Shown piece by piece: positions 97 through 35,328 of a DNA stretch of 35,328 nt (position 1 is the first letter of the stretch; each line of letters opens with the position of its first letter). The translations under genes were made by a program, and so were the position numbers. The notes beneath the pieces are model-generated. The model made no database searches, was not told the origin of the DNA, and saw only the letters and a program-made list of their open reading frames with translations. The stretch is from NCBI GenBank assembly GCA_937925645.1, contig CALAMB010000015.1:1-35328 (forward strand). Reading direction: 5' to 3'. Origin of the DNA: an uncultured Acidobacteriota bacterium. GTDB taxonomy: Bacteria > Acidobacteriota > JAAYUB01.

Positions 97-165
97 CCTT
101 AAATCCAAGGCGATGGGTTGAAACCGACTGACGTCGAAGTGCGTCTCAACACTGTCCCGCCAGGA

Positions 166-195: not shown

Positions 196-237
196 GGACG
201 AAGCCGCCCGCGGGACACACTGCCGAGGAGGTGCCGG

Positions 238-1242: not shown

Positions 1243-1312
1243 TCCCGATTCAATTTGCCTTCCGGCGATAAAATCCCTATGATCGGAACATCCCGGTTTC
1301 CCGAGGTGGGCC

Positions 1313-1639
1313 ATGCAGGTGGAAGTCTCCAGCATCGGCGGCAAGTGGACGATCCTCGCGCCGCAGGGCCGCGTGGACGCCCATACCGTCGACGATTTCG
1401 AGACCGCCGTCCGGAAGGAACTGGCGGCGGGCGCGCGGTGGCTGGCCATGGACCTGGCCAGCGTCCCCTACATGAACAGCGCCGGCCTGCGCGTCCTGCT
1501 CATCGCGCTCAAGGCCGTCCGGCCGCTCGACGGCGGCGTGGTGCTGGTGCGGCCGCAGCCGCAGGTTCAGGAGATCCTCGAGATCTCCGGATTCATGAAC
1601 ATCTTCTCGGTCGTCGCCGACACCGACGGATTAAGTTGA
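1313..1639 (+). CDS. STAS-domain anti-sigma factor antagonist
   Basis: A 108-residue single-domain STAS protein of the SpoIIAA/RsbV type. The alternating strand-helix pattern and the segment MNSAGLRVLL (about residues 53-62) match the phosphorylation loop; the Ser there is the expected site for a partner kinase. In such systems the unphosphorylated antagonist binds the kinase/anti-sigma protein and frees a sigma factor or other target, and a PP2C phosphatase resets it. The next gene, starting two bases after this stop codon, encodes both phosphatase and kinase-like domains, so the two form one partner-switching operon. A GAGGTGGG ribosome binding site precedes the ATG. The target of the switch is not in this window. 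Confidence 0.88.
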   Translation: MQVEVSSIGGKWTILAPQGRVDAHTVDDFETAVRKELAAGARWLAMDLASVPYMNSAGLRVLLIALKAVRPLDGGVVLVRPQPQVQEILEISGFMNIFSVVADTDGLS

Positions 1640-1640
1640 C

Positions 1641-4040: not shown

Positions 4041-4245
4041 CGGCTCGATGCGGGATCAGTCGCCACGAACGCGCATGAGACCCCAGGGATTCATCGGGCC
4101 TTGATCCTCTTTCATTGATCATTTTTCATCTGTCATTTTTCATGGAGTGGTCATTGATCATTGTTCAATTGTTATTGGCTATCTGGGATCCTGTGCCGGC
4201 TTGTCGCGATTGTCCCGTTTCGGCCCCGCCCTCCGGTTCCGACTG

Positions 4246-4308
4246 CCGATATCCGACGTCCGATATCCCATGTCCGAAATCCGATATCCGAAGTCCGATG
4301 TCCGAAGT
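4246..4308. repeat. Heptanucleotide tandem array (CCGANNT)x9
   Basis: Nine consecutive seven-base units: CCGATAT, CCGACGT, CCGATAT, CCCATGT, CCGAAAT, CCGATAT, CCGAAGT, CCGATGT, CCGAAGT. Positions 5 and 6 vary while CCGA and the final T are almost constant. There is no spacer, so this is not CRISPR-like. Confidence 0.9.
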
Positions 4309-4351
4309 TCGCATGGCGGAGACGAGCCTCTAACCTCGAGCCTCTAGCCCC

Positions 4352-4512
4352 GATTACGATCACGATTACGATTACGATTACGAATTACGATTACGATTAC
4401 GATTACGAATTACGATTACGAGCACGGCTTCCGGACACGAGCCTCTAGCCTCGAGCCTCTAGTCTCGATTACGACCACGATTACGAGTACGATTACGAAT
4501 TACGAGTACGAG
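4352..4512. repeat. GATTAC hexamer arrays in a higher-order repeat
   Basis: Runs of (GATTAC) broken by GAATTAC occur at about 4353-4420 and again at about 4465-4512. Each is followed by an ACGAGCACG-CTTC segment and an ACACGAGCCTCTAG block. The second copy has more substitutions (GACCAC, GAGTAC). This indicates duplication of a unit of about 110 bases that itself contains hexamer repeats. Confidence 0.8.
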
Positions 4513-4534
4513 CACGACTTCAGGACACGAGCCT

Positions 4535-7500
4535 CTAGTCTCGAGCCTCGAGCCTCGTGTCCCGGTGCCACAGTCGGTACAGCGCCGGCAGCACGAGCAG
4601 AGTGAGCGCGGTGGACGACAGGATGCCGCCGATAACCACTGTGGCCAGCGGGCGCTGGACCTCGGCGCCGGTGCCCGTGGCCACGGCCATGGGCACGAAT
4701 CCCAGCGCGGCCACCAGGGCGGTCATGAGCACCGGCCGGAAGCGGGTGAGAGCTCCCTCGCGGATCGCGGCGGCCAGGTTGCGCCCGTCGCGGCGCAGCT
4801 GGTTGATGTGGGTGACCAGCACCAGGCCGTTGAGCACGGCCACGCCCGACAGCGCGATGAAGCCCACCGCCGCCGAGATGGAGAAGGGAATCCCTCGAAG
4901 CCAAAGGGCCAGCACGCCGCCCGACAGCGCCAGCGGCACGCCGGTGAACACCATGGCGGCGTCCCGGCCGGAGCCGAAGGTGGCGAACAGCATCAGGAAG
5001 ATCAGCAGGAAGCACGCCGGCACCACCACCAGCAGTCGGTCCCGGGCCGCCAGCAGGTTCTGGTACTGGCCGCCCCATTCGATCCATGTGCCTGGCGCCG
5101 GGCGGACTTCCCGGCCCACCCGCTCCCGGACCTCGGCCACGAACGAGCCGAGGTCCCGGCCGCGGACGTTGGCCTGGACCGTCACCCGGCGCTTGCCGTT
5201 CTCCCGGTTCACCTGGCCGGGACCGAAGGCGACCTCGATCCGGGCCACGGTTTCCAGCGGCACGGTTCCCCTCAGGCCGGCCGCCGACGCGGCGCCGCCG
5301 CCGGAGTCCGCGGCCGCCGGCAGCGGCACCGGCAGGCGGCGGATGGCCGCCACGTCGGCGCGCAGCGCGTCGGGCAGCCGGACCACGATGGGGAACCGGC
5401 GATCCCCCTGGTACACTTCGCCCGCCTCTCGGCCGCCGATGGCGGTGACCACCAGGTCCTGGATGTCAGCCACGTTGAGCCCGTACCGGGCTGCGGTCGC
5501 CCGGTCCACGGCGATGTTCAGGGTGGGGGAACCCTCGTGCTGCGACATCCGCGCGTCGGCGGCGCCGGGCACGGTCTGGACGACCTGCAGGATCCGCCGG
5601 GCGATCTCCTCCAGCGTCACAAAGTCGTCCCCGAACACCTTCACCGCCAGGTCGCCGCGCACGCCGGCCACCAGCTCGTTCATGCGAAGCTCGATGGGCT
5701 GGCTGAATTCGTACAGGTTGCCCGGCACGGGCTCCACCGCCGCCTGAATCTTTGCGATCAGACCGGCTTTCGGGAGGCCGGGGTCCGGCCAGGCGGGCCG
5801 GGGCTTGAGGATGATGTAGCCGTCGGAGAAGTTGGGCGGCATGGGATCGAAGGCGACCTCGGCCGTGCCTGTCTTCGAATACATCAGCTCCACTTCGGGC
5901 AGACGGGCCACCGCTGCCTCGACCTGGGCCTGCAGAGCCAGCGACTGGTCGATGGCGATGCTGGGGACCCGGATCGACTGGAGGCTCAGGTTTCCCTCGT
6001 CGAGCTGGGGCACGAATTCCTGGCCCATGGACAGGAAGAGCAGCACGGCGCCGGCGAACACGGCCACCGCGGCGCCCACCACCGCCCAGCGGACGCGCAC
6101 CGCCAGGTCGAGCAGCGGGGCGTAGGCCCTTTTCAGCAGGGCGATCAGGTGGTTTTCGGTCTCCTGGACCGGGCCGCGGACGGCCAGCGCCACCAGCGCG
6201 GGCACGGCGGTGAGCGACAGGACAAACGCCGCGGTGAGCGCGAATATCACCGTCAGGGCCATGGGGTGGAACATTTTCCCTTCGATGCCGGTGAGGGCCA
6301 GGATGGGGACGTACACCAGGATGATGATCGCCTCGCCGAAGGCGGTGGCGGCGCGCACCTCGCGGCAGGCGGCGCCCGTCACCGCCAGCCGCTCGGACGC
6401 GGTCAGCGCCCGGCCCAGCTCGCGCTGCCGCTCGCCGAGGCGGCGCAGGCAGTTTTCCACGATGATGACGGCGCCGTCCACGATGAGGCCGAAGTCGATG
6501 GCGCCGAGGCTCATGAGATTGGCGCTGAGCCCGGCGCGATCCATGCCGATGGCGGTCAGCAGCATCGAGACGGGGATGGCTGTCGCGGTGATGAGGGCCG
6601 CCCGCAGGTTGCCCAGGAGCAGCAGCAGCACCGCGATCACCAGCACCGCGCCGAGGAAGAGGTTCTCCTGGACGGTGGCGATGGTCTTGTCCACAAGCTC
6701 GGTGCGCACAAGCACCGGCCGCAGGCGGATGCCCGGCGGGAGGCTGGCGCGGATCTCGTCCACGCGAGCGGTTACCGCCTCGGTGACCGAGCGGGGGTTG
6801 GCCCCGAGGAGCATGAGCACCGTGCCCACCACCACCTCGCGGCCGTTCTCGCTGGCCGCGCCGAGGCGCAGCTCGCGGCCCGCGCCGATGGTGGCCACCT
6901 GGGACAGGCGCACCGGCGTCCCCCCGCGGGCGGTGACGACAATGTGGCCGATCTCGTCCGGGCCGGTGACCCGGCCCTCGGAGCGCACGACGTACGCCTC
7001 GCCCGCCTGGTCGATGGTGCCGGCGCCCACGCTGGCGTTGTTCCGCTCGAGGGCGGCCAGGATCTCCGGCAGGGTGACGCCGTAGGCGACGAGACGCGCC
7101 GGGTCCGGCTGCACCAGGAACTGCCGCTCGAAACCGCCGATCGTGTCCACGCCCGCCACGCCGGCGACAGTGCGCAACTGGGGGCTCACCACCCACTCCT
7201 GCACGGTGCGCAGGTAAGCGAGTCGCTCCGGCTCCTCCGCCAACCGCTCGCCCTCGGGGGTCCGGTAGCTGCCGTCGGGCTGCCAACCCGGCGCATCCGA
7301 CCTGCCGCCGGCGCCCGGCTCGGCGGGGCGATCATACTCGATGATGTACACGTAGATCTCCCCGAGGCCGGTGGTGACGGGGCCGAGGCGTGGCTCAGCG
7401 TCGGCGGGGATCCGGTGGCGGGCTTCCGCCAGCCGCTCCAGCACCTGCTGGCGGGCGAAGTAGATGTCGGTGTCGTCGCCGAAGACCGCCTCGACCTGGC

Positions 7501-7771
7501 AGAAGCCGTTGCGCGAGAGCGACCGGGTGGACTGCAGTCCCGGTATGCCCGCCAGGGCGGTCTCCAGGGGGAAGGCGACCTGCTGTTCGATTTCGGTGGG
7601 CCCGAGCGGCGGGTAGACCGTCGTGACCTGCACGATCCGGCTGCTGACGTCAGGCACCGCGTCGATGGGCAGGCGCAGCAAGGCGAAGGCGCCGTAGGCC
7701 GCCGCCAGGGCGGTGAGTGTCAGCACCAGCCAGCGGTGGCGGATGCTGAAGTCGATGATCCGGTTCAACAT
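4535..7771 (-). CDS. czcA: Heavy-metal efflux RND transporter, CzcA type
   Basis: Predicted 1078-residue inner-membrane proton/metal antiporter, the usual size for heavy-metal RND pumps. The N-terminus (first transmembrane helix, then DAVPDVSS and PPLGPTEIEQQV) is typical. Helix 4 carries DFGLIVDGAVIIVEN (Asp426, Asp432, Glu439), the pattern of the CzcA branch exporting divalent cations such as Zn, Co or Cd, rather than the Cu/Ag branch; the metal assignment is inference from that motif. The ATG at 7771 has AAGGAG eight bases upstream. It is last in the order czcC-czcB-czcA and would form the tripartite pump with them. The final residues (RDTRLEARD) are encoded by the intergenic repeat, so the extreme C-terminus looks acquired or replaced. 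Confidence 0.92.
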   Translation of the reverse strand: MLNRIIDFSIRHRWLVLTLTALAAAYGAFALLRLPIDAVPDVSSRIVQVTTVYPPLGPTEIEQQVAFPLETALAGIPGLQSTRSLSRNGFCQVEAVFGDDTDIYFARQQVLERLAEARHRIPADAEPRLGPVTTGLGEIYVYIIEYDRPAEPGAGGRSDAPGWQPDGSYRTPEGERLAEEPERLAYLRTVQEWVVSPQLRTVAGVAGVDTIGGFERQFLVQPDPARLVAYGVTLPEILAALERNNASVGAGTIDQAGEAYVVRSEGRVTGPDEIGHIVVTARGGTPVRLSQVATIGAGRELRLGAASENGREVVVGTVLMLLGANPRSVTEAVTARVDEIRASLPPGIRLRPVLVRTELVDKTIATVQENLFLGAVLVIAVLLLLLGNLRAALITATAIPVSMLLTAIGMDRAGLSANLMSLGAIDFGLIVDGAVIIVENCLRRLGERQRELGRALTASERLAVTGAACREVRAATAFGEAIIILVYVPILALTGIEGKMFHPMALTVIFALTAAFVLSLTAVPALVALAVRGPVQETENHLIALLKRAYAPLLDLAVRVRWAVVGAAVAVFAGAVLLFLSMGQEFVPQLDEGNLSLQSIRVPSIAIDQSLALQAQVEAAVARLPEVELMYSKTGTAEVAFDPMPPNFSDGYIILKPRPAWPDPGLPKAGLIAKIQAAVEPVPGNLYEFSQPIELRMNELVAGVRGDLAVKVFGDDFVTLEEIARRILQVVQTVPGAADARMSQHEGSPTLNIAVDRATAARYGLNVADIQDLVVTAIGGREAGEVYQGDRRFPIVVRLPDALRADVAAIRRLPVPLPAAADSGGGAASAAGLRGTVPLETVARIEVAFGPGQVNRENGKRRVTVQANVRGRDLGSFVAEVRERVGREVRPAPGTWIEWGGQYQNLLAARDRLLVVVPACFLLIFLMLFATFGSGRDAAMVFTGVPLALSGGVLALWLRGIPFSISAAVGFIALSGVAVLNGLVLVTHINQLRRDGRNLAAAIREGALTRFRPVLMTALVAALGFVPMAVATGTGAEVQRPLATVVIGGILSSTALTLLVLPALYRLWHRDTRLEARD

Positions 7772-7821
7772 GGTTGCGCTCCTTGAGGCGGACGGCCGGG
7801 CCGCCGCCGGTTCTGCCGGCG

Positions 7822-9120
7822 CTAGTGGCCCGAGCAGGTCTTGCCTTCCATCAGCCCTTTCTCGTATTGGGCCTTGAGGACGAACGCGCCCGACACCGCC
7901 ACCCGGTCGCCGGGTCGCAGGCCGGACTCGATGGGGATGCGGTCGCCTGCCGGGGTGCCGGTGCGGACGGCGCGAGGCTCGAAGACGCCCGGCTCGCCGG
8001 CCGTTTCAACGAACACCGTGGGCCGGCCGTCCACCGACTGGACCGCCCCGGCCGGCATGGCCAGGATCGCCGCGGCGCCGGCGACGCTGAAGCGGGTTTC
8101 CACGAACATCCCCGACTTGAGCGGCAACCCGACTCCGCCCACTTCGATGCGGACGGGCACCGTGCGCGTGGCCGGATCCACCACCGGCGGGATGAAGGTC
8201 ACGGTGCCGCGGACGGCGGTCCCGAGCGACGGGGCGCTGACCTCCGCCGCCAGGCCGGTGCGGAAGTGCTGGATCTCGGTCTCCGGCACGTCGGCCAGCA
8301 CCCAGAGAGTGCGGGTGTCCGCGAGCAGGAAGACGGCCTCCCGTTCCGGGCCCACGACCTCGCCCAGCGTGGCGTGGCGCTCCACCACCTGGCCGGCGAC
8401 GGGGGCGCGGACGGCGTAGCTCGGTTCGATCTGGCCGGTGCGGACCAGGCGCTCGAGATCGGCCGGCGCCATGCCCCACAGGCGCAACTGGTCGGCGGCG
8501 GCGCGCTCGGCGGCTTCCGCCGCCTGCAGGTCGGCCTCGGCCTTGCGGCGGTCGCCGTCGCGGCGCTGGTACTCGCCCACCGACATGCCCTTCTCCGCCA
8601 GGAGGTGCTCGGCCCGCTCGGCGGCGCGGCGGGCGACTTCCAGCGCGGTGCGGGCCACCTGGACCTGGGTGCGCCGCTGGAGGAAATCGCTCTGGGCCTG
8701 GCCCAGCGCCACGCTGTCCACCACCAGGAGCACGTCGCCCCGGGCCACGCAGTCGCCCAGCCGCGCCCGCACCTCGGCCACCCGGCCGGACACGGGGGTG
8801 CTCACGTGGGCCATCCGCTCGGTGTCGAAGGTGACCCGGCCCGGGTAGGCAAGCGCCTGGACCATGACCTGCCGGCGGACGGTTTCCACCCGGACGCCGT
8901 TGGCGCGCATCGCCTCCGGGGTGAGGCGGAGGGGCGCGGGCGCCTCGCCGGCGTGATCGTGCCCGTCGTGATCGGGATCCCCGGCCTCCTGGCCGCGGGT
9001 TTCTGCGGCGTGATCGTAGGCCGTGGCCGATGGGGACGCGCCGCCGCAGCCGGCGATTGAAGCGACGGCCGTAGCCAGCAGCAGGCCGGCGCAGAGGCGG
9101 GCAATCAGGTTCGCGTTCAT
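7822..9120 (-). CDS. czcB: RND periplasmic adaptor lipoprotein, CzcB type
   Basis: A 432-residue membrane fusion protein linking CzcA to the outer-membrane channel. The N-terminus is a lipoprotein signal ending in ASIAGC (lipidated Cys at about 25). A short His/Asp stretch (DPDHDGHDH, about residues 48-56) may bind metal. Then come the barrel-sandwich half-motif (AHVSTPVSGRVAEV), a long alpha-helical hairpin rich in Ala/Glu/Arg, the second half-motif (YAVRAPVAGQVVERHATLGE) and the beta-barrel region. The C-terminus KTCSGH adds another Cys/His pair. Its ATG overlaps the czcC stop as ATGA, which indicates translational coupling. czcA begins 50 bases downstream. Confidence 0.9.
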   Translation of the reverse strand: MNANLIARLCAGLLLATAVASIAGCGGASPSATAYDHAAETRGQEAGDPDHDGHDHAGEAPAPLRLTPEAMRANGVRVETVRRQVMVQALAYPGRVTFDTERMAHVSTPVSGRVAEVRARLGDCVARGDVLLVVDSVALGQAQSDFLQRRTQVQVARTALEVARRAAERAEHLLAEKGMSVGEYQRRDGDRRKAEADLQAAEAAERAAADQLRLWGMAPADLERLVRTGQIEPSYAVRAPVAGQVVERHATLGEVVGPEREAVFLLADTRTLWVLADVPETEIQHFRTGLAAEVSAPSLGTAVRGTVTFIPPVVDPATRTVPVRIEVGGVGLPLKSGMFVETRFSVAGAAAILAMPAGAVQSVDGRPTVFVETAGEPGVFEPRAVRTGTPAGDRIPIESGLRPGDRVAVSGAFVLKAQYEKGLMEGKTCSGH

Positions 9121-22827: not shown

Positions 22828-25800
22828 CTAGGGCAGCGGCTGGGCGTTGACGGCGGACAGGAAATTCAGCGCCTGGTCGCCGAACAGCGCGAAGACGATC
22901 ACGTCACGGGCCGGGTCGCTCAGGCTCTCGACGAGCAGGAAGCCGCCGAAGATACTCGTCAGAGCGGGCATCTGCTGATCCAGCAGGAAGACGCTCCGGC
23001 CGCGGGCCGGGATATTGAGCGTGCTCGAATCCAGTTCCACGCCGTTCTGGTCATGGGCCGTCAGGCGGACCTGCTGGCCGGTGTCCCCCGGGTTGAGCAC
23101 GGCGAGACCCGTGAAAAATGACGTGCTGCCGAGTTGGCCGTTGGCCATGTGCGCCACGAGGCTGCGCGCCTGCCCCTGCGCGGCCAATGGCAAACTTGAC
23201 AGGAACCGCCCGTTGCCGGACTCGCCGAAGGTCACCAGGCCCATCAGCGGCGCTTCGCCCTGCGGCTCCACGGTCAGGTAGCCCGTGGCGGGGCCGGTGA
23301 GTCCGAACAGGGTGGCCACGTCCTGCTGGAGCTTGCTCTGCGCCGGGACGCTCAGCGCCGGGCTGGTGCCCAGGAGCTGGCCGGCGTCGCCGAACATGCG
23401 GATCACCACGGCCGTGCCGGTGTCGGTCGCGTTGAGCACGGTGAGCCGCGTTTCGTAGTTCACGCCCAGATTGCCGCAGGCGAAGTGCGGCGAGTAGAGG
23501 GTGGACGCGGATTCGGGCAGGGTCAGCCCGTCGATCGCCGCCAGCTTGTCGCTGTTGCCGGAAAGCTGGCAGCCCAGCACGGGGATGTCGGCCTGCAGCC
23601 GGATGAAGTCGGGCGCGGCCAGGGCGGGGAAGGCGGTCCCCAGATCCACTTCGAGCCGACCGCGACCCGGCAGCGTGTAGGACTTGGACTGGAGGACGGA
23701 GCCGTTGCTGAGCCGGTCCAGGACCAGCCGGCACTGGTTCTTGCTGGGATTGATGACCAGCAGCGTGCGCACCGGATCCGTGCCGGCGGGGAACAGGAGC
23801 CGGGTGTGGGCGTCGCGCGCGTCGGGCAGCGGGAGCCCGTCCATGTAGTGGAGGGTGGCGCCGTCGTTGGCCAGCCAGAATCCGTACGTCTCCGGCTCGG
23901 TCAGAAAGCCGCGCACCCAGCGCCCGGGCTGGTCGGCGTCGGCGCCGAACACGCTGGGGTCGGTGAGGTAGCGGGCATATTGCTGCCCGGGCGCCAGCGG
24001 CACGGTGACCGCCTTCCGGTGGGTGCCCGTGGAGTCGTAGAGCTCCAGGTTGAGCAGGCCCGTCGAAGCGCCGAGGTTGATGACGGAAAACGACAGGTCC
24101 CGGCTTTGCGGCAGATGCACCAGGTTGAACGCCCGGTCGGCGAGCGCCGCCACGCCGGTCCGGGAGCAGATGCCGCCGAGCGTGGTGCCGCCGGCGATGC
24201 TGAGGATGTCGTTTTCGACCAGCGTCACGTGGTTGACCGGATCCAGTTCCATGTCGCCCAGGGTGTTGATCGAATAGGCGTAGGCCATGGTGCCGTTGGC
24301 GTCCGAGACGCAGAGGCCGAGCTTGTAGTAATCGGCGTAGCCCACCAGGATGTCCGGCCCGTGCTGGCCGTCGAAGTTTTCGGCCTGGAGGGCCGATGGC
24401 GGGTTGATGAAAAAAATGTTCTGGCCGGAACCGGGCGCGAAGGTGCCGCCGGCGCCGGCGTGCCAGATGCTGATGGATTTGCTCGCCGCCTGCGCCACGG
24501 CCAGATCGGTGCGGCCGTCGCGGCCGAAGTCGGCGGCCGCCACGGCGACCGGCTGTCCGCCGGGCGTGGCGTAGCTGGCGGCCGAGAACGAGCCGCCCTC
24601 GTTGCGCACCACCGTCACGGAGTTGTTGTCGCGGTTGACCACCGCGATGTCCGGCCGGCTGTCGCCGTTGAAGTCGCCGGTTGTCAGCGCCACCGGTCCG
24701 GAGCCCGAGTAGATCGACTCGCTGCTTGAAAACGCCTGTCCGTACAGGATCTGCAGGGAACCCATGGCGGGGACCGTGTACAGGAAATCCTTCTGGTTGT
24801 CGCCGTTGATGTCGATCACCTGCGAGGCGCTGGGTTCGCCGGCCAGCGCCGCCGTTCGGACGGCAGCGAGGGGGCTGCCGGGGCGGGCGGCCTTGTCGAA
24901 GAGGGTTTCCCAGGCGTAGATCCGCAGCGTGCCGGCAGTGTCGGCAACCAGGATATCCGGCCGGCCGTCGCCGGTCACGTCGCCGATCTCCACCGTGCGG
25001 GCCGCGGCGCCGTCCAGGGACCGCCAGTCCAGCGTCGGGTACGTGCCGTCCGGTCCCGACAGCGACCAGTACAGCCGGTTGGACGCCGCGTCGATGGAGA
25101 CGATGTCCTCGCGCCCGTCGCCGTCGAGGTCGCCCTGGGCGTGGTCGGTGATCGTGGCGCCAACGAGGCGGGCGGGGGCGACATCCTCCGCCACGGTGTG
25201 ATCGAGCCGGAACAGGTTCAGCGTGTCGGGAGTGAATTTGGTCGTCAGGGCGGCGCCCGTCTTCTGGTAGAACGCCCGGACCGTGACCGGGAACATGTCG
25301 TCGGTCAGGTTGAAATCGTAGCCCCGCAGGTCCCCGAAGAACTGGGAGTTGGCCTGGGTGAACTGGCCGGCGGCGCCCCAGTTGCTCGCCGCGTTGAGAG
25401 GCCAGACGCCGGCGCCGATCCCGATGGTGAAGCCGAGGTAGTTCTCGTCGTCGTCGGGTTCCCAGGCGCTGGTGCTCCGGGTGAGGCGCAGCCAGATCTT
25501 GTTCTCGCCCTGCACGCAGCGGAACAGCTGGATCGCGTGGTCGTCGATGCCGGCGGTGGCCGCAGTGTCCACGACCGGCTGGTAGGTGGCCGACACGCCG
25601 TCAAAGGCGTATTCCGAGACGGCCAGCGGCTGCAACCTCGCGCCGGGGGGCAGCACGTCGAGCTGGGTCAGGGTGCCGTCGGCCAGAGTCTGGCTCAGCA
25701 GGGCGCCGTCGGGCAGGGTGAGTTCCAGGATGACCGGATTGGCAGTGCCGGCGCCGGGGAAGGTGTTGGGCGCCAGGAGGACCGTGATCGCCGAGGCGGG

Positions 25801-27726
25801 CAGGATCTGGGCGGCGAGCGCCTGGTTCACGTTGCCGGTCTGGCCGGCCCGGGTCAGCAGCGGCACCGTGGGCGCGGTCGTCGACGTGTAGGCGAACACG
25901 CCGCTCGACGTGGCGGCGTACACCCGCGTGGGCGACCGCACGTCGGTGGCCAGCGCCTGGACGTCCGTTTCGGTAGTGGCGCGCGACACGGCGAACCAGG
26001 AAGCGCCGGAATTGGGGCTGTAGAACAGCCCGTCGGTGGTGCCCGCGAACATGCCCTGGGTTTTGGGCTGGCGCACCAGCGCCTTCACCCAGTGGGACGC
26101 CAGTCCGGCGGGCGTCCAAGCGCCACCTTCATCCGTGCTCTTGAACACGCCCGAGCGCGTGCCGGCGAAGAGTGTCTGCGGACTGGCCTCGTTGGAGGCC
26201 AGGCTGTGGACGCGCGTTTCGGTCAGGCCCGTCATCGCCGGATTCCAGGTGAGGCCGCCGTCGGCGGACTTGTAGAAGCCGTCGTCACCGACAGCGTACA
26301 TCTTCAGAGCGGACCACGGGTCGAACATCAGCTCGATCACGTTGACGTCCACGAGCTGGCCGGTGGGGGTCCAGGTGGCGCCGCCGTCAGTGGACAGGAA
26401 CAGGCCGAAGAAGGGATAGTCCCAGGTGGGCCACCCGGACGTGGCCCATACGGTCAGGGGATCGTCCGGGTCCGTTTCGATATCGAAGATATACTTGTTG
26501 GGTGAGCCGCCGAGTACGCGACTCCAGCTCTCCCCCTCGTCCAGCGTCCGGTACATGCTTCCGTTGATGGTGCCCATGATCGTCACGGGGTCGGTTGCGG
26601 AGCTCAGGGCGAGATTCTGGAAGGCGAGGTCGTTGCCGTAATGGCTCTGAAACGCCCACGACTCGCCGCCGTCGGTGCTCTTGAACAGGTAGCCCGAGTC
26701 GTCGCCGGCATAGACGATGCCGGCGCCCTCCGGCGATACGGCGAGGCAGTGGGTCTTGGTCCGGATGCCGGAGCTGGCCTCCTGCCAGGTGACGCCGTGG
26801 TTCCACGACCGCTGGATGCCGCCGACGGTGCCGGCGTACAACGCTCCCGCCGGATCGATGGACTCGATGGCGATGCAGCGGCCGCCGAGTTCGTTGACCA
26901 CTTCCCATGTGGCGCCGCCGTCAGTGCTGGCATAGACTGCGGCCAATGAGATGCAGAACAGACGGTCCGGATCTCCGGGGTCGCAGACCAGGCCGTTGAA
27001 GTAAAGGTGGGACGAACTCTGGGTCCAGGTCGCCCCGCTGTCGGAACTGACGTACACGGCCCACGGGATATAGGAGCTGGCGTAGACGCGGCCGGGAATG
27101 GTGGGGTGGCAGGCCACGCGCCAGCCCTCGGCGACGGTTGGCGAGACGTTCGTCCAGTTCAAACCGCCGTTGGTGCTCTTTTGCACGCCCGAATTCCAGG
27201 TGGCGATATAGAGTGTCTGGCTGGCCAGGGGGGCCTGCCGGATCTGGTCAATCTGGGGCGTGCCCGGGATCGTGGCGACGACGGTCCAGTAGAATCCGCC
27301 GTCGAGGGAGCGGTACACTTGCGTCAAGCTCGCCGCATAGATGATCGAGGGATCGGTGGGGTGGAAAGCGAAGCAGCGGACGGAGTTGCCGGCAACCTTG
27401 GACCATGTGTCGCCGCCGTCCGGACTCCGGTGGATCCCGGTCGAGTTGGAGGCGAACACCACCCGGTGGTCGAGGGGATGGATGTCGGCGGCCTCAATGG
27501 GCGAGGTGAAGCCGGCGATGGCTTCCCAGCTTTGTCCCCAGTTGCGGCTCCGGTAGAAACCGCCTTCCCGCACGCCGGCGAACAGCACGTTGGGCGTCTG
27601 GGAGTCGACGGTGACGAACTTCATCTGTCCACCGTACGGTCCGGCGGTGCTCCAGCGGTTCAATCCGGCCGTGGCCGGCAGCGCCAGCGCCATCAGCAAA
27701 ACCACGATACCCGCGATGCGATGCAT
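22828..27726 (-). CDS. Giant secreted Asp-box (BNR) and FG-GAP repeat protein
   Basis: Predicted 1632 residues with a Sec signal peptide (IVVLLMALALPATAG). Residues 40-640 form sialidase/VPS10-like beta-propeller blades with 13 Asp-boxes of form SxDxGxTW, for example at 60-67, 101-108, 140-147, 184-191, 227-234, 267-274, 350-357, 445-452 and 487-494. Residues about 860-1130 contain FG-GAP/VCBS calcium-binding repeats (DLDGDGREDI, DVTGDGRPDI, DINGDNQKDF, DFNGDSRPDI, DFGRDGRTDL). The C-terminal 400 residues are repeated beta-sandwich-like segments (LNATDTGTAVVIRMFG, LNPGDTGQQVRLTAHD). There are no obvious catalytic residues, so an adhesive or surface role is more likely than sialidase activity. 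The ATG has GAAGGAGG four bases upstream. Confidence 0.85.
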   Translation of the reverse strand: MHRIAGIVVLLMALALPATAGLNRWSTAGPYGGQMKFVTVDSQTPNVLFAGVREGGFYRSRNWGQSWEAIAGFTSPIEAADIHPLDHRVVFASNSTGIHRSPDGGDTWSKVAGNSVRCFAFHPTDPSIIYAASLTQVYRSLDGGFYWTVVATIPGTPQIDQIRQAPLASQTLYIATWNSGVQKSTNGGLNWTNVSPTVAEGWRVACHPTIPGRVYASSYIPWAVYVSSDSGATWTQSSSHLYFNGLVCDPGDPDRLFCISLAAVYASTDGGATWEVVNELGGRCIAIESIDPAGALYAGTVGGIQRSWNHGVTWQEASSGIRTKTHCLAVSPEGAGIVYAGDDSGYLFKSTDGGESWAFQSHYGNDLAFQNLALSSATDPVTIMGTINGSMYRTLDEGESWSRVLGGSPNKYIFDIETDPDDPLTVWATSGWPTWDYPFFGLFLSTDGGATWTPTGQLVDVNVIELMFDPWSALKMYAVGDDGFYKSADGGLTWNPAMTGLTETRVHSLASNEASPQTLFAGTRSGVFKSTDEGGAWTPAGLASHWVKALVRQPKTQGMFAGTTDGLFYSPNSGASWFAVSRATTETDVQALATDVRSPTRVYAATSSGVFAYTSTTAPTVPLLTRAGQTGNVNQALAAQILPASAITVLLAPNTFPGAGTANPVILELTLPDGALLSQTLADGTLTQLDVLPPGARLQPLAVSEYAFDGVSATYQPVVDTAATAGIDDHAIQLFRCVQGENKIWLRLTRSTSAWEPDDDENYLGFTIGIGAGVWPLNAASNWGAAGQFTQANSQFFGDLRGYDFNLTDDMFPVTVRAFYQKTGAALTTKFTPDTLNLFRLDHTVAEDVAPARLVGATITDHAQGDLDGDGREDIVSIDAASNRLYWSLSGPDGTYPTLDWRSLDGAAARTVEIGDVTGDGRPDILVADTAGTLRIYAWETLFDKAARPGSPLAAVRTAALAGEPSASQVIDINGDNQKDFLYTVPAMGSLQILYGQAFSSSESIYSGSGPVALTTGDFNGDSRPDIAVVNRDNNSVTVVRNEGGSFSAASYATPGGQPVAVAAADFGRDGRTDLAVAQAASKSISIWHAGAGGTFAPGSGQNIFFINPPSALQAENFDGQHGPDILVGYADYYKLGLCVSDANGTMAYAYSINTLGDMELDPVNHVTLVENDILSIAGGTTLGGICSRTGVAALADRAFNLVHLPQSRDLSFSVINLGASTGLLNLELYDSTGTHRKAVTVPLAPGQQYARYLTDPSVFGADADQPGRWVRGFLTEPETYGFWLANDGATLHYMDGLPLPDARDAHTRLLFPAGTDPVRTLLVINPSKNQCRLVLDRLSNGSVLQSKSYTLPGRGRLEVDLGTAFPALAAPDFIRLQADIPVLGCQLSGNSDKLAAIDGLTLPESASTLYSPHFACGNLGVNYETRLTVLNATDTGTAVVIRMFGDAGQLLGTSPALSVPAQSKLQQDVATLFGLTGPATGYLTVEPQGEAPLMGLVTFGESGNGRFLSSLPLAAQGQARSLVAHMANGQLGSTSFFTGLAVLNPGDTGQQVRLTAHDQNGVELDSSTLNIPARGRSVFLLDQQMPALTSIFGGFLLVESLSDPARDVIVFALFGDQALNFLSAVNAQPLP

Positions 27727-29364: not shown

Positions 29365-29416
29365 TCGGGGAGGTGGTGCGCTCCGGACGATCGCGCGACA
29401 GCGGCAGTGTTTCGTA

Positions 29417-29439
29417 GCGCGCGTTCGATGAACGCGCGC
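29417..29439. repeat. Perfect 10-base inverted repeat
   Basis: GCGCGCGTTC at 29417-29426 and GAACGCGCGC at 29430-29439 are exact reverse complements with a three-base loop (GAT). No T tract follows on either strand. It lies in the 295-base gap between the divergent M24 peptidase and antitoxin genes and may be an operator, a barrier hairpin or a dispersed palindrome. Confidence 0.75.
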
Positions 29440-29546
29440 CTGAGGCAGGCTGTCGTGGCACGGCGTTGACGCATGTTGGGTGGATCACACAGACTGCGGT
29501 CTGGCCGCATTCGTCGAATGGTCAGGGTCCGATCATCGGGCCGGTC

Positions 29547-29573
29547 TTGACAGGAATTCAGGCATGATATTTC
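29547..29573 (+). promoter_or_regulatory. Probable promoter of the toxin-antitoxin pair
   Basis: A perfect TTGACA at 29547-29552 with TATTTC at 29568-29573, only 15 bases apart. ATGA and TCAT half-sites flank the -10 region (29564-29578), a possible autoregulatory site for the RHH antitoxin. Confidence 0.45.
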
Positions 29574-29593
29574 GTCATACCCGGAGGCGCGAC

Positions 29594-29836
29594 ATGGGGC
29601 GATCCAAAGTGGCCATCACCATCGATGAGGCGCTCCTTCGGCGGCTGGATCAACTGGTGAAACAAGCCGTGTTCCGCAATCGCAGCCAGGCGATCCAGGT
29701 CGCGGTGCAGGAGAAGCTGGAGCGCGTCGATCAGAACCGGCTGGCGCGCGAGTGCGGCAAGCTGGATCCGGGTTTTGAAAAGACCCTGGCGGAGGAGGGA
29801 TTGTCGGAGGAGTTGAGGCGATGGCCGGAATACTGA
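29594..29836 (+). CDS. Ribbon-helix-helix antitoxin of a MazEF-type pair
   Basis: An 80-residue protein. The N-terminus ([20 protein letters not shown]) followed by [16 protein letters not shown] is a ribbon-helix-helix DNA-binding fold; the charged C-terminal tail would wrap the toxin. It should neutralise the MazF-like toxin encoded next and repress the shared promoter. The ATG at 29594 has CGGAGG seven bases upstream. The reading frame overlaps the toxin gene by 16 bases, the usual coupling for such pairs. G+C is about 60% in this stretch, lower than neighbouring genes, consistent with horizontal gain. Confidence 0.87.
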
Positions 29837-30159
29837 GGGGCGATATTCGGTGGGCGGATTCGAATCCGGAGCGAGGGTATGGGCAGGCAGGGCAGCGGCC
29901 GGTCCTGATTTTGAGTCACGATGTGTTCAACGAGCGTTCGGGTAAGGTGATCGCCGTCGCCATCACGGGTCAGCCGCAGCGAGCGGGCTTTCCGCTGACA
30001 CTGGAGCTGGAGTCGAAAGATCGGCCGAAACGGTTCTGGGTCAAGATCAGCCAGATCCGGACGTTGGCCGTCGTGCGAATCGGCAAACGGCTCGGGAAAG
30101 CGAAGCCCGGGGAGATCGCCCAGGTCGTGGACGGGCTCAATGAAATCATCGGACCCTGA
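29821..30159 (+). CDS. mazF: MazF/PemK-type endoribonuclease toxin
   Basis: A 112-residue protein of the MazF fold. [27 protein letters not shown] (about 6-32, segments RGDI and GQRPVLILS) is the family hallmark, and a [19 protein letters not shown] segment matches the C-terminal DQIRT-type strand. MazF toxins cut single-stranded mRNA at short sequence-specific sites; the specificity here cannot be read off. It is complete and follows its antitoxin with a 16-base overlap, so the pair appears functional. No phage or plasmid gene is adjacent. Confidence 0.88.
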
Positions 30160-30257
30160 CCACGGCGTGAATCCGACAGTCCGGCCGGCAGTCCCGGCAA
30201 GCCGACCCAACGTACTTCCACTGCCGATCCGATGCACCATTGGGTTTCGAAGTGATC

Positions 30258-30300
30258 TTGACGAGCCACCCGCTGCGTTTTACATTGTCAGACATGACAA
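30258..30300 (+). promoter_or_regulatory. Promoter with a perfect operator dyad
   Basis: TTGACG at 30258-30263, a 17-base spacer and TACATT at 30281-30286 make a good sigma-70 promoter. The dyad TTGTCA-N4-TGACAA at 30285-30300 overlaps the -10 and the expected start site near 30293, the classical place for a repressor. The leader to the ATG at 30450 is about 157 bases. I cannot name the regulator. Confidence 0.6.
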
Positions 30301-30449
30301 CCTCGGGCCCGATCATTCAAGTGCACAGGGACCCGGTCGTCTTGCTGACGACAGCCAGCCGGCGATCCGGAAAAACCCGCAGCGCGATCTGTTGTTTCGC
30401 GCCGCGCTGCTGATGCCGGGCGCTGGGCAGACTCAGGAGGGAGGAAGCG

Positions 30450-31055
30450 ATGCGGTCGATACTCGTGACGACAGTGCTGCTCATCGGGTGCCTGGCGGGA
30501 TCCGGCATCGGACGGGCGGAGGGCCGGCCGTTTCTGCCGGTGGGCGTCTTCATCGCGCCCATCGAAGAGGGCGCTCGAATCTTCACCCCGGTGCGGCTGC
30601 TGCCGTTCGATCATCCGGAGGCGTTGGGCCACGAGTTCCCGAACGCGTTGCAGCTTCACGGAACCGAGTTCGACACACTCGTCCTGCTCGGCAGCCACGC
30701 CGGCCTGGGGCTTGCCGCCACGCTGCAGCGGTATCCCCGGCAACCGGACGCCGCCTGGCCATACCCGGGCTTTGACCAGCCCCCGCTCGAGGCGCTCCGG
30801 AATGCGGCGGTGGTCCGACGGCCGATGGCGGAGACGCCGATCCCTGGCTTGCGGGCGGCCGGCTTCTGCGGTCGCCAATTGGTCGGTTTCATCGTCGACA
30901 CGCGGGGGCTGAGTCTGAGCGCCCGGGGCATGGAGCGTCCGACCGCCATGGGCCTGGACCTCGACCGCGCCGCGTTTCTGAAGGCGGTCCGGCGGGCCGC
31001 CGATGCAGCCCCGGCGGCCGCGGCGGCGAGCATCGTTGTCTACGAGCCGCGGTGA
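30450..31055 (+). CDS. Exported protein of unknown function
   Basis: A 201-residue protein with a signal peptide (RSILVTTVLLIGCLAGSGIGRAEG); the Cys at position 14 is not in a clean lipobox. The mature part is not a recognised family; it holds FPNALQLHGTEFDTLVLLGSHAGLGLAATL, RAAGFCGRQLVGFIVDTRG and an Ala-rich C-terminal helix. The ATG has a very strong AGGAGGGAGGAAG site just upstream. It is transcribed alone from the operator-bearing promoter at 30258-30300 and converges on the gene at 31150. Confidence 0.72.
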   Translation: MRSILVTTVLLIGCLAGSGIGRAEGRPFLPVGVFIAPIEEGARIFTPVRLLPFDHPEALGHEFPNALQLHGTEFDTLVLLGSHAGLGLAATLQRYPRQPDAAWPYPGFDQPPLEALRNAAVVRRPMAETPIPGLRAAGFCGRQLVGFIVDTRGLSLSARGMERPTAMGLDLDRAAFLKAVRRAADAAPAAAAASIVVYEPR

Positions 31056-31149
31056 GCGCCGCCGCCATACAGCGCGCGGAAACAGGCGGAGCCGCCCGCG
31101 GGCTCACCGGACTACCCGCCCATCGTACCGCCCGCCGACTTCGCGAAGA

Positions 31150-31674
31150 TCATTCGGGGCGATAGTACGCGGCGAACTCGGCCGCGAAGGTGAAGCCGAT
31201 GCCCTTCTCCTTCCGTTCGCCGTCGCAGGTGAGCCGGCCCGCCAGGCCCGTCGCGTCGTACCGGTCAAGGGTCAGCCGGTAGCGGGTGGAATTGCCGCTG
31301 GGCCCGTGGCCGAAAGCGGGGTGGCGGACCTTGACGGCTGTCAATTTTCCCTCGTGGCTGATGGTCAGCTCCAGGGCGCGGAGGTTTCCGGCCTTTTCCA
31401 GCTTGAGGCGTTCGTTCGGGTCCGTGACGGCGGCCGCGGGCAGCTCCCGGTCGCACAGGAGCACCACGGCGTCCAGTTGGCCCGGGTCGAAATGGCCGGC
31501 GCGCCGGTGGGCGTAGGCATGGGTCAGCGCGGTCGCCTCGCCGTTGACGGTGAGCGTGCCTTCGACCTGGCCCGGTTTGACGGCCAGCGCCCATGGGGCG
31601 CAGAGTGCCGCCACCATGACCAGTAACGCCGGCAGTGCCGACCGTGAAACGATGCGTCTGACAGGGGGCATCAT
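31150..31674 (-). CDS. Exported protein of unknown function
   Basis: A 174-residue protein with a signal peptide (SALPALLVMVAALCAPWALA). The mature part looks all-beta: EGTLTVNGEATALTHAYAHRR, QLDAVVLLCDRELP, and a C-terminal TFAAEFAAYYRPE. Family not recognised. The ATG at 31674 has GGAGGA four bases upstream; a second ATG follows directly at 31671. It is driven by its own extended -10 element and lies downstream of the truncated fumC copy. Confidence 0.72.
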   Translation of the reverse strand: MMPPVRRIVSRSALPALLVMVAALCAPWALAVKPGQVEGTLTVNGEATALTHAYAHRRAGHFDPGQLDAVVLLCDRELPAAAVTDPNERLKLEKAGNLRALELTISHEGKLTAVKVRHPAFGHGPSGNSTRYRLTLDRYDATGLAGRLTCDGERKEKGIGFTFAAEFAAYYRPE

Positions 31675-31723
31675 GTCATCCTCCGTCCGCTCGAATTCCC
31701 GGGGATAAGGTGATTCTAACCGG

Positions 31724-31732
31724 ATTATAACA
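31724..31732 (-). promoter_or_regulatory. Extended -10 promoter for the gene at 31674
   Basis: The minus strand reads TGTTATAAT, an extended -10 with a perfect TATAAT, giving a leader of about 43 bases. No strong -35 is seen, as is usual for this promoter type. Confidence 0.5.
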
Positions 31733-31782
31733 TTTCGGCCGCCGTCCGACGCCGCATATCCAAGACGACGGGTATCCGGTCG

Positions 31783-31931
31783 TCAGCCGCCCGAGCCGCC
31801 GCCCTTGATGCCGCCCTCGGTCAGGGAGCGGGGGTCCAGCAGGCGGTCCAGTTCGGCGGGCGCCAGGCCCGTCGCCTCGGCGGCCACCTCGCGTACCCGC
31901 CGCCCCTCGGCAAAGGCGCGCTTGGCGATGG
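31783..31931 (-). pseudogene. Truncated 3' copy of fumC
   Basis: The last 48 codons of class II fumarase, in frame and ending in a stop (TGA at 31783-31785), with no start codon, ribosome binding site or N-terminal part. 31787-31931 is identical base for base to 34088-34232 of the intact gene; identity ends at the third base of the final Gly codon (GGC here, GGG there) and the stops differ (TGA against TAG). A hairpin with GACGAC/GTCGTC arms (31764-31784) overlaps the stop. It cannot encode a functional enzyme. Confidence 0.9.
31787..31931. repeat. 145-base direct repeat, left copy
   Basis: Exact match to 34088-34232, in the same orientation, offset 2301 bases. It brackets the leftward sigma/anti-sigma/secreted protein operon together with the right copy. 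Confidence 0.93.
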
Positions 31932-31962
31932 TTGTGGTCCCTCAGGTCCCGGGACGATGCGC

Positions 31963-32919
31963 TCACTCTTGGGGTTTAACGCCGGCCCCGACTCCTACGC
32001 TGGCTTCCACCACACTCCAGTCGGGTCCCGCCGGGCCCTTGGACCCCGAACCTCGCGCCGGATACGTGAAGACATCCGGATCGTGCTGGATCCACACCTT
32101 CCATGGGCCGCCGTCAAGGAAGTCGTCCCGCGAGATCAGTTCGAACCGGTTGTCCCGATAGTCGAACCGGATGAGGTTGCCCTTGACGGTCCCCATTAGG
32201 TCCGTCTTTCCAGCGGGGCGGAAAAATAGCCGGAAGCGGCCGAACTGTTTCGTCAGGATCTCGAAGTGGACGGCACCCTCCCGGTCGCTTCGCGCGGAAC
32301 CGTCGGAACCGGATCCGCCCCACACCCGACGGTCGTTGAGGAGCAGCATGCCACCCGTGATGCGCAGCTCATGCAATGGCATTGGGTACGCTCCTGCCGG
32401 CATCGCGTTTTCCACCAGAGGGACCACCTGGATGGCATATTTGATGTCGCGTCCTCGATCCTCGAACAGGTTGACAACCGCCTTTTCCAGGTTGCGCACC
32501 GTGGCCGCGGCTTTTCCGGTATGGGCGGTAGTCCCGATCTTCATGGTCCATTGAAACTGCAGCTCGATGCCGTCGGGCAGAATCCGGGCGGGCCGGATGG
32601 TGAGCTGGTACTCCCTTGATTCAGTCCGGTCGTCGGTGGTTTTCGCACCCGTCTGGATGGTGGCCGAATGTCCCAACACGACCTGCACCTTTGGAGCCAA
32701 CAGAGTCATGGTTTCCGCAGGGTGGATCTGCAGCAACGCCAGATCCAGGTTGATGATGATCGGCCTCTCCCTGCCTGTGTCGTTCGCGGCGGCACCCAGG
32801 CGCTCTTCCGGCGGCGCGGCCGGCGCTCCGGTGTCGACCGGCGCGATCGCCGGTCCGGCGGTGAGGCCGATGGTGGTCAGCAACAGCAGCCAGCCGATCA
32901 ACCCAACAGTGGACTGCAT
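31963..32919 (-). CDS. Exported protein of unknown function in the sigma cassette
   Basis: A 318-residue protein with a signal peptide (IGWLLLLTTIGLTAGPAIA). The mature part is probably rich in beta strands (REYQLTIRPARILPDGIELQFQW, HFEILTKQFGRFRLFFRPAG, GNLIRFDYRDNRFELISRDDF) and has no recognised family. ATG 32919 is chosen: GGAGGA lies about seven bases upstream, whereas for ATG 32925 it is too close. The start is two bases past the anti-sigma stop, so the three genes form one operon. It may be the signal receptor or main target of the sigma factor; that is inference. Confidence 0.72.
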   Translation of the reverse strand: MQSTVGLIGWLLLLTTIGLTAGPAIAPVDTGAPAAPPEERLGAAANDTGRERPIIINLDLALLQIHPAETMTLLAPKVQVVLGHSATIQTGAKTTDDRTESREYQLTIRPARILPDGIELQFQWTMKIGTTAHTGKAAATVRNLEKAVVNLFEDRGRDIKYAIQVVPLVENAMPAGAYPMPLHELRITGGMLLLNDRRVWGGSGSDGSARSDREGAVHFEILTKQFGRFRLFFRPAGKTDLMGTVKGNLIRFDYRDNRFELISRDDFLDGGPWKVWIQHDPDVFTYPARGSGSKGPAGPDWSVVEASVGVGAGVKPQE

Positions 32920-32921
32920 GA

Positions 32922-33419
32922 TCATTCCTCCCTGAAGACATAGACTGTCGTATCCTCGACGGGCTGGCACCGGGACAGGTCCAGGACGATCTCCCGCTGC
33001 AGGATCGTGTCACCGGCGGCGATGGTCACTGTAGTGACCGGCGGCTGCCGGGTGGCCCGCAGTTCTCCCATGATGAGGCGCTGCTGCCAGATGACGATGC
33101 CCATGCCGGCGATCAACAGCCCGGCGGCGGCCAGCAGCGGGATCGGAATTTGGAGATGCCGGCGCCAGATGCTGCGTGGTGCACCCGCTGCCGCGAGTCG
33201 TTGATCAGGGGGAACGGCGTGTGCCAGCGGCGGCGCGGCCACGACGGGCCAGGCTTCATCCAGTGAACGGCGAACCGTCTGGGCCCGCCGCCGGACGGCA
33301 TCGACTGCATCGCGGCAGTCTGGACAGGCAGACAGGTGCGCGCGGATCGTGTCGGCGGAGAGGGAATCCAGCTCGCCGTCGACGAACGATTGCATGGCGG
33401 ATCGGTCAAGGCATCGCAT
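32922..33419 (-). CDS. Zinc-finger transmembrane anti-sigma factor
   Basis: Predicted 165 residues. The cytoplasmic N-terminus carries the ZAS-type pattern HLSACPDC (HxxxCxxC, about residues 28-35), which with an upstream His or Cys binds zinc and holds the sigma factor. A transmembrane helix follows at about 92-110 (IPLLLAAAGLLIAGMGIVIW region), then a periplasmic domain ending VYVFREE. ATG 33419 has GAGG seven bases upstream; a GTG at 33425 is in frame but poorly placed. It starts nine bases after the sigma stop. Confidence 0.85.
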   Translation of the reverse strand: MRCLDRSAMQSFVDGELDSLSADTIRAHLSACPDCRDAVDAVRRRAQTVRRSLDEAWPVVAAPPLAHAVPPDQRLAAAGAPRSIWRRHLQIPIPLLAAAGLLIAGMGIVIWQQRLIMGELRATRQPPVTTVTIAAGDTILQREIVLDLSRCQPVEDTTVYVFREE

Positions 33420-33428
33420 GGTCACACC

Positions 33429-33953
33429 TCATTCCAGTAGTGCCGCCAGCCTGTCGATGGCCCGGGACAGCGCCTTCCCCACGGTGGTCACCCGCAGGTC
33501 CAGCACGCGGGCCATCTCGGCGTAGCTCATCTCGTTCCAGTACAGCACGACGAGAAGCCGGTCCCGGTCGGGCAACCGGCTGAGGGCCTGCCTGACTTTC
33601 GCTATTCGGTCCTGTTGCAAGTAGTCTGCTTCCGTGTCGTGGCCGTCCGGCAGATCGGGGCTGCAGGCCAGGGGCAGGAATCGTCGCCACCGCAGGCGGC
33701 GGAGTCGATCCCGCCACAGGTTCACCGTCACGCGGCACAGCCAGGCCCGCGGATTCTCGGGCGATCGGCCGGTGTCAGGCTGCTGCGCCACCCGCAGGAA
33801 CGCCTCCTGCACCAGTTCCTCCGCGGTGTCGAGGCACCCCGTCAGGCGGACCGCCAGTCGAAGCAGCCAGTCGGCATGGTCTTGGTAAAGGCGTTCCAGC
33901 GCGGTGTCCGTTTCCGCCATCCGGCCCGTGGTCTGTGTCTGAGAGAAATCCAT
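33429..33953 (-). CDS. ECF RNA polymerase sigma factor in the cassette
   Basis: Predicted 174 residues with region 2 (ALERLYQDHADWLLRLAVRL, then DTAEELVQEAFLRVAQ and PRAWLCRVTVNLWRDRLRR) and region 4 (ALSRLPDRDRLLVVLYWNEMSYAEMARVLDLRVTTVGKALSRAIDRL). It is not closely similar to the sigma factor at 14057. It is followed by its likely zinc anti-sigma factor. The ATG at 33953 lacks a strong ribosome binding site; an internal ATG at 33920 is an alternative. A hairpin lies in its leader. Confidence 0.88.
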   Translation of the reverse strand: MDFSQTQTTGRMAETDTALERLYQDHADWLLRLAVRLTGCLDTAEELVQEAFLRVAQQPDTGRSPENPRAWLCRVTVNLWRDRLRRLRWRRFLPLACSPDLPDGHDTEADYLQQDRIAKVRQALSRLPDRDRLLVVLYWNEMSYAEMARVLDLRVTTVGKALSRAIDRLAALLE

Positions 33954-33983
33954 TCTCGTTGATCCGACCCGGCTCTCACCCGC

Positions 33984-34000
33984 GCGAACCGTTGGTTCGC
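33984..34000 (-). promoter_or_regulatory. Perfect 7-base hairpin in the sigma leader
   Basis: GCGAACC at 33984-33990 and GGTTCGC at 33994-34000 are exact reverse complements with a three-base loop. It sits 31-47 bases upstream of the sigma ATG. It may be an operator or a translational control hairpin. Confidence 0.5.
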
Positions 34001-34045
34001 CCGGCCATCATCACCATAGACGAAGCCGCGGCGAATTTGTGGCAC

Positions 34046-34074
34046 CGACTCAATATAAAAATGAAACTGAGTCG
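34046..34074 (-). promoter_or_regulatory. Dyad around an AT-rich -10-like element downstream of fumC
   Basis: CGACTCA at 34046-34052 and TGAGTCG at 34068-34074 form a perfect seven-base dyad around AT-rich sequence whose minus strand reads TTTTTATATT. It begins ten bases past the fumC stop. It could act as a fumC terminator hairpin (no T tract follows) or as a regulated promoter for the sigma operon. Confidence 0.4.
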
Positions 34075-34083
34075 ACGGGTGCG

Positions 34084-35328
34084 CTACCCGCCCGAGCCGC
34101 CGCCCTTGATGCCGCCCTCGGTCAGGGAGCGGGGGTCCAGCAGGCGGTCCAGTTCGGCGGGCGCCAGGCCCGTCGCCTCGGCGGCCACCTCGCGTACCCG
34201 CCGCCCCTCGGCAAAGGCGCGCTTGGCGATGGCCGCAGCGGCGTCGTAGCCGATCACCGGGTTGAGCGCCGTGACCATGATGGGATTCTTCTCCACCCGT
34301 TCCGCCACGGCGGCGCGGTTGACCGTGAAACCCGCCACGGCCTTGTCCGCCAGCAGCCGGGCGGCGGCGGCCAGCAGCCCCTCGGCCTGCAGCAGGTTGT
34401 GGGTCACCAGCGGCAGCATGGTGTTGAGCTGGAAGTTGCCCCCCTGGCCGCCCAGGGTGACCGCCGTGTCGCAGGCGATGGCCTGGGCGGCGGCCATGAT
34501 CACCGCTTCGCAGATCACCGGATTGATCTTGCCGGGCATGATGGAGGAGCCGGGCTGGAGCGCCGGCAGGGCGATCTCGGCCAGCCCCGCCTGGGGCCCG
34601 GAGTTCATCCAGCGCAGGTCGTTGGCGATCTTCATCAGGATCACGGCGACCGTTTTCAACTGACCGGACAGCTCCACCGCCGTGTCCTGGGCCGCCTGCA
34701 GCTCGAAGTGGTTGTCCCCCTCGCGGAAAGGCAACCCGGTGAGCCGCGCCAGCGCCGCGGCGGCGCGCCGGCCGAACTCGGGGTGGGCGTTGATGCCGGT
34801 GCCCACGGCGGTGCCCCCCAGCGCCAACTCCGCCAGCCGGGGCAGGACCGCCTCGACGCGGGCGATGGCGTGGTGCGCCTGGCTGGACCAGGCGCCGATC
34901 TCCTGCCCCAGCCGCACGGGCATGGCGTCCATGAGATGGGTGCGGCCGGTTTTCACCACGTCGTCGAGCGCGACGGCGCGCCGGTCGAGGACGTCCCGCA
35001 GGTGGCGCAGCGCCGGCAGCAGCTCGCCGGCGGCCTGCTCGTAGGCGGCCACGTGGATGGCGGCGGGAATGACGTCGTTGGACGACTGGCCCATGTTCAC
35101 GTGGTCGTTGGGATGGACGGCGGGCGGGCCGGCGGCGTCCTCCAGCAGTTGCCGCGCCCGGGCGGCGATCACCTCGTTGGCGTTCATGTTGGTGGACGTG
35201 CCCGAGCCGGTCTGGAACACGTCCACGGGGAAATGGCTGTCCCACCGGCCGTCGGCCACCTCGCGGGCGGCGGCGCCGATGGCGGCGGCCGGCTCCGGCG
35301 GCAGGAGGCCGAGCGCGGCGTTGGCCTC
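34084..35328 (-). CDS. fumC: Class II fumarate hydratase (5' end outside the window)
   Basis: 414 residues are present; the family is about 460 long, so some 45-60 N-terminal residues lie beyond the right edge. Visible motifs: QTGSGTSTNMNANEV, the RTHLMDAMPVRLGQE catalytic segment, and the superfamily signature GSSIMPGKINPV. The enzyme interconverts fumarate and malate in the TCA cycle in the cytoplasm. Aspartase and argininosuccinate lyase share the fold, but HLMDAMPVRLG favours fumarase. The C-terminus ends GGGSGG before TAG at 34084-34086. The last 145 bases recur exactly at 31787-31931. Confidence 0.93.
   Translation of the reverse strand, partial: EANAALGLLPPEPAAAIGAAAREVADGRWDSHFPVDVFQTGSGTSTNMNANEVIAARARQLLEDAAGPPAVHPNDHVNMGQSSNDVIPAAIHVAAYEQAAGELLPALRHLRDVLDRRAVALDDVVKTGRTHLMDAMPVRLGQEIGAWSSQAHHAIARVEAVLPRLAELALGGTAVGTGINAHPEFGRRAAAALARLTGLPFREGDNHFELQAAQDTAVELSGQLKTVAVILMKIANDLRWMNSGPQAGLAEIALPALQPGSSIMPGKINPVICEAVIMAAAQAIACDTAVTLGGQGGNFQLNTMLPLVTHNLLQAEGLLAAAARLLADKAVAGFTVNRAAVAERVEKNPIMVTALNPVIGYDAAAAIAKRAFAEGRRVREVAAEATGLAPAELDRLLDPRSLTEGGIKGGGSGG

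Follow-up and report, generated by a model that had tools for sequence, protein, structure and literature searches.

Genes and repeats at the locus

The window (the whole stretch of DNA that was analysed, 35,328 nucleotides) carries at one end fumC, whose product has the Pfam domains Lyase_1 and FumaraseC_C, followed on the same strand by a three-gene operon and then by a second copy of the 3' end of fumC (Table 1). We call the copy that lies in the gene R and the distal one R'. The C-terminal sequence GGIKGGG(S/T)GG of the fumarase is common to 7 of 9 aligned relatives (the near-identical P0005 not counted), and R is the real end of fumC, which keeps its C-terminus and its stop, as a preliminary description of this DNA had stated.

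Table 1. Positions of the features discussed (numbering of the window)
Feature	Position	Strand	Evidence or remark
RHH antitoxin and PemK/MazF-like toxin pair	29594..30159	+	present in G050, absent here in G075
o30450, accessory gene	30450..31055	+	matches in 3 of 396 genomes
Y174, accessory gene for a small exported-looking protein	31150..31674	-	matches in 16 of 396 genomes
R', distal repeat copy, untranslated fumC 3' end	31787..31931	-	TGA at 31783-31785 behind it
Native spacer behind ORF3	31932..31962	-	shared with G075
ORF3, exported-looking protein	31963..32919	-	strong matches limited to G037, G075 and G050 of 396 genomes
Zinc-finger anti-sigma factor	32922..33425	-	Pfam zf-HC2; HxxxCxxC
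ECF sigma factor	33429..33953	-	Pfam Sigma70_r2 and Sigma70_r4_2; TIGR02937
fumC, class II fumarate hydratase	34084..35328	-	stop TAG at 34084-34086; 5' end outside the window
R, proximal repeat copy, coding 3' end of fumC	34088..34232	-	repeat search and alignment of relatives
Putative mosaic breakpoint zone in fumC	34372..34590	-	identity comparison; near-identity to G037 ends

The operon is a stress-type control operon, and its composition is as had been described: an ECF sigma factor with sigma regions 2 and 4 only, an adjacent HxxxCxxC anti-sigma factor, in which inspection by eye shows a hydrophobic, possibly membrane-spanning stretch, and ORF3, an exported-looking protein about 318 residues long. 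Its G+C content (ORF3 62.9%, anti-sigma 67.1%, sigma 67.0%) is indeed lower than that of fumC (73.3%), but the figures first given, 53-62% against 82%, were too extreme. ORF3 has no Pfam or NCBIfam match and was found in none of the seven more distant genomes of our first locus search. Its predicted structure is too weak (mean pLDDT 51.9) for the best PDB matches, chains of a type III secretion needle complex and its secretin at E values no better than about 0.007 (none of the 778 matches reaches E <= 0.001), to be more than a lead. We also considered carriage by a plasmid or virus and rejected it: a search of 72,556 plasmid records at E 1e-5 gave nothing for ORF3, and no viral contig was confirmed for ORF3 or Y174.

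R and R' are identical over all 145 bases (100%), lie in the same orientation and are spaced 2301 bases apart, which bears out what had been read from the letters. This pair is the single repeat reported within the window (seed 20, minimum length 30), and a chance origin is excluded because in 20 triplet-shuffled windows the longest exact repeat had 18 bases. The identity breaks off one base ahead of the stop codon, so that R ends GGG-TAG, with the stop that fumC also has in G037, G075 and G050, and R' ends GGC-TGA; the second copy does keep the frame of fumC with a different stop, as claimed. R' nevertheless is a fragment and not a gene, because it lacks a start codon and has a TGA in frame just upstream; it is an untranslatable tail of fumC, a non-working spare piece.

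The operon in close relatives

Relatives were sought with the nearest fumarase protein in the 396-genome sample of the phylum of G003 (the Acidobacteriota sample), a collection that holds one genome per species and gives no kinship. The fumarase has matches in 366 of the 396 genomes, among which G037, G075 and G050 are far closer than the rest; we call these three sister species, a label that we infer from sequence identity. ORF3 has matches in six genomes of the sample, one in each of these three, the others being weak and partial.

In all three relatives fumC, sigma factor, anti-sigma factor and ORF3 follow each other in the same order. Since the operon lies directly downstream of fumC in every one of them, it is an old resident neighbour of this gene, and R' with the genes behind it is the peculiarity of the window. 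The idea of a regulatory cassette newly inserted beside fumC, as the preliminary description had it, is therefore not supported and was rejected.

The R sequence occurs at one place each in the three relatives, identical to the window's at 145/145 positions in G037, 135/145 in G075 and 138/145 in G050. R', Y174 and o30450 are absent at the corresponding place on the contigs of G075 and G050. The contig of G037 (4243 bases) stops before the position of R', ending inside ORF3 at window position 32040, 109 bases before the junction of spacer and R'. The comparison of fumC downstream regions proposed earlier has thus found the operon resident throughout and a second fumC end missing from G075 and G050; relatives carrying both copies in diverged form had been named as the refuting case, and neither of these two has a second copy. 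As the simplest reading we also rejected an old duplication kept from the common ancestor: R equals R', yet 10 of the 145 positions of R are different in G075 and 7 in G050, and the lack of a second copy on their contigs opposes it as well.

Recent exchange with a lineage close to G037

Compared with G037, the window differs at only 2 of 2332 sites in 32040-34371 and at 35 of 957 in 34372-35328 (Fisher test, sites treated as independent, p about 4e-17). By part, the differences number 2/2048 in the operon, 0/145 in R, 4/357 in the next part of fumC and 31/739 beyond. The first mismatch, at 34372, comes after an identical run of 1040 bases, and a further stretch, 34444-34571, is again identical in both. 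Changes private to the window number 9 in the 957 fumC bases beyond 34371 and 0 in 32040-34371; those private to G037 number 21 and 0, respectively. In fumC of G037 (locus L113) we observed 14 differences in less than 100 bases, corresponding to window 34591-34684 and mostly private to G037, a cluster that suggests a second small import; when it is left out the Fisher p is still about 1e-10.

Outside this block G037 is about as close to the window as the other two relatives, judging from the two stretches for which it has an orthologue: window 6-3957 is 90% identical to G037, 89% to G050 and 89% to G075, and window 4463-7736 is 88%, 85% and 86% identical, respectively. In the operon the window differs from G075 at 8.6% and from G050 at 9.1% of sites, and in the 5' part of fumC it differs from G075 by 3.4% and from G037 by 4.2%. 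Because the block is 99.9% identical to G037 and the two other comparable stretches only 88-90%, operon and fumC end appear to have been exchanged recently between the lineage of the window and one like G037, with a breakpoint in the zone listed in Table 1. Import into the window is our preferred reading of the direction, the data showing an exchange between lineages only. The short contig of G037 could be mis-binned, which counts against the import.

The recent event invoked in the preliminary description is thus supported, and so is its acquisition of the operon, in the form of a recent import; the transferred block, however, includes the 3' end of fumC itself. Likewise, the duplicated target that it proposed stands as a second, recent fumC end, but how this copy arose can only be reconstructed.

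The distal junction and a variable interval

At the other end of the operon the spacer runs directly into internal sequence of a fumC end, and two bases at this join are common to both sides in the unrearranged sequences. The corresponding point of the G075 spacer, where R' begins in the window, is the foot of a stable palindromic hairpin, behind which the gene of an M24 peptidase follows. In G050, ORF3 has an altered C-terminus (L112 4256-4294), apparently through a deletion extending into the toxin-antitoxin region; behind it come the toxin-antitoxin pair and then M24. The interval between M24 and ORF3 (29480-31931) is a variable spot, different in every genome that shows it complete: it measures 0.2 kb in G075, holds the toxin-antitoxin pair in G050 and contains this pair, two further genes and R' in the window. 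A palindromic REP-like element lies at window 29413-29447 before the M24 gene; it has many matches in G037, G075 and G050, and the hairpin at the ORF3 spacer of G075 resembles it.

R', on which TGA follows at once, reads like the genuine terminus of a fumC allele that had different DNA downstream. A fumC allele directly before Y174 was not found in any genome searched, nor did fumC occur in the two stretches that we read around Y174-like genes (in G023 and G075). Y174 has its best match in G023 (68%), a distant one in G075 (32%) and none in G037; o30450 has its best match in G016 (50%), the other two being weak. For neither was an orthologue found in G037, G075 or G050, where DNA matches are limited to short stretches. 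Short repeats bordering the accessory segment looked like chance and were set aside.

Origin of the second fumC end

We think that the window gained the operon by recombining with a sister lineage, an event that left the second fumC end behind, a reading to which we give a probability of about one half; the locus is most likely a case of ordinary gene swapping and involves no new mobile element. In the ancestral state that we infer, fumC would have been directly followed by the accessory genes now at 30450-31674. The incoming DNA, from a sister lineage very close to G037, would have comprised the sigma operon together with the 3' part of fumC that precedes it. At one end, ordinary homologous exchange would have taken place inside fumC, where the sharp change of identity is observed; at the other, the operon spacer would have been joined to internal sequence of a fumC 3' end through the two bases that they share, the junction being observed and the manner of its formation our reconstruction. 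The outcome would be a whole fumC, an added operon and a displaced tail, R', with its own TGA stop.

This import would account for the place where R' ends: identity stops at the fumC stop and another stop codon follows, as expected of the end of a real allele. Against it stands the fact that R' is identical to R of G037. A tail native to the recipient should show about 5 differences, and the probability of finding none in 145 bases is about 0.005 at 3.66% divergence; therefore either the donor had two copies or the two tails were homogenised by gene conversion, and one of these must be added to the import. The recombination may accordingly have followed one of two topologies, namely homology-facilitated illegitimate recombination followed by homogenisation of both tails, or the arrival of donor DNA that already carried a tandem or circular unit of fumC tail and operon. 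Further points against the import are that no genome with fumC next to Y174 was found, that the G037 contig ends short of the junction, and that for window 9000-31786 no orthologue was seen in G037.

The rival that survives best, possible though clearly less probable than the import, is a local duplication after it: the operon block would have come in by homologous exchange, and R' would be a later templated copy, made when replication stalled at the hairpin behind ORF3 and switched template. That the spacer of G075 meets its stable palindrome exactly at the junction point and that the junction has a 2-base microhomology both speak for such a copy, which would also explain directly why R and R' are identical. 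On the other hand, the end of R' one base before the stop, and then a stop codon, would be a coincidence (3/64 for the stop alone, by arithmetic only).

Somewhat more doubtful is a chimera of the assembly, in which the contig would join two co-occurring species through shared stretches of fumC. The switch of identity does fall in a gene common to both species, and the identical stretch behind the first mismatches would suit a false join. But an overlap assembler is not expected to create a spacer/R' junction with 2 shared bases only, two independent wrong joins would be required, and R, with its differences to G075 and G050, is not a conserved sequence.

A bolder extension of the import, which we consider improbable, would make fumC end and operon a self-restoring, integrase-free cassette that moves between sister species by recombination in fumC, the 145-base tails allowing clean gain and loss, so that strains would switch between a fumC-operon and a fumC-accessory-gene state. 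RecA acting on the two copies is predicted to delete the operon cleanly and to leave an intact fumC; if this is true, strains would have a simple route to gain or lose a sigma-factor circuit.

That a small element integrated site-specifically, using R and R' as its attachment sites, is very improbable: a gene end is the target, direct repeats of it flank the segment and the gene is restored with reading frame and stop, and direct repeats of such length are seen for att sites in genes, but none of the three close relatives shows an empty site, each having the operon beside fumC already and two of them visibly without a second copy, and the near-identity to G037 extends past the repeat to 34371. 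In line with the preliminary description, neither integrase nor transposase was found among the 26 ORFs scanned (Pfam or NCBIfam) or among the 10 ORFs of 29480-33953 (PHROGs). The window has no tRNA and no Rfam match at the gathering score.

Comparison with known systems

The phenomenon is of a known kind: a recent recombination between species from which a gene end was left over. Integrative elements of the icd type attach at the 3' end of a gene, and the locus is like them in that direct repeats of a gene end flank a segment and the gene is intact; it differs in that no integrase is seen and in that the relatives carry the segment as an ordinary neighbour on the chromosome. With interspecies mosaic genes made by homologous recombination it shares an abrupt shift of identity within a housekeeping gene, here fumC, whereas in our case the gene end is still present in a second copy.

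Homology-facilitated illegitimate recombination, known from natural transformation, is described in PMC4437187 and PMC6382021 as a homologous anchor at one end and a microhomology join at the other. An anchor in fumC and a microhomology join between spacer and R' are both seen here, although the sequence of G037 ends at 32040 and the donor side of the junction lies beyond it. The microhomology has 2 bases, unlike the 3- to 10-bp segments given in PMC6382021, and the insert here is resident DNA of a sister species. In PMC3410848 illegitimate recombination is confined to the reference list. Among the titles listed by our literature search none is on this locus; we do not claim that it is absent from print.

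The locus would be a fresh footprint of the exchange of regulatory genes between species within the Acidobacteriota sample searched, and it indicates that a displaced gene end can mimic an att site where ordinary recombination suffices.

Repeats elsewhere in the window

A non-coding stretch at 4240-4560, between the genes of a SpoIIE-type regulator and an RND pump, matches dozens of places in the three relatives, and window 1-9100 has 54, 63 and 60 matches in them in all, orthologous regions included. The stretch appears to belong to a dispersed repeat family that has no Rfam match. A large gene at 22828-27726 codes for a Sortilin/FG-GAP repeat protein and has several paralogous stretches, 65-70% identical, in each relative.
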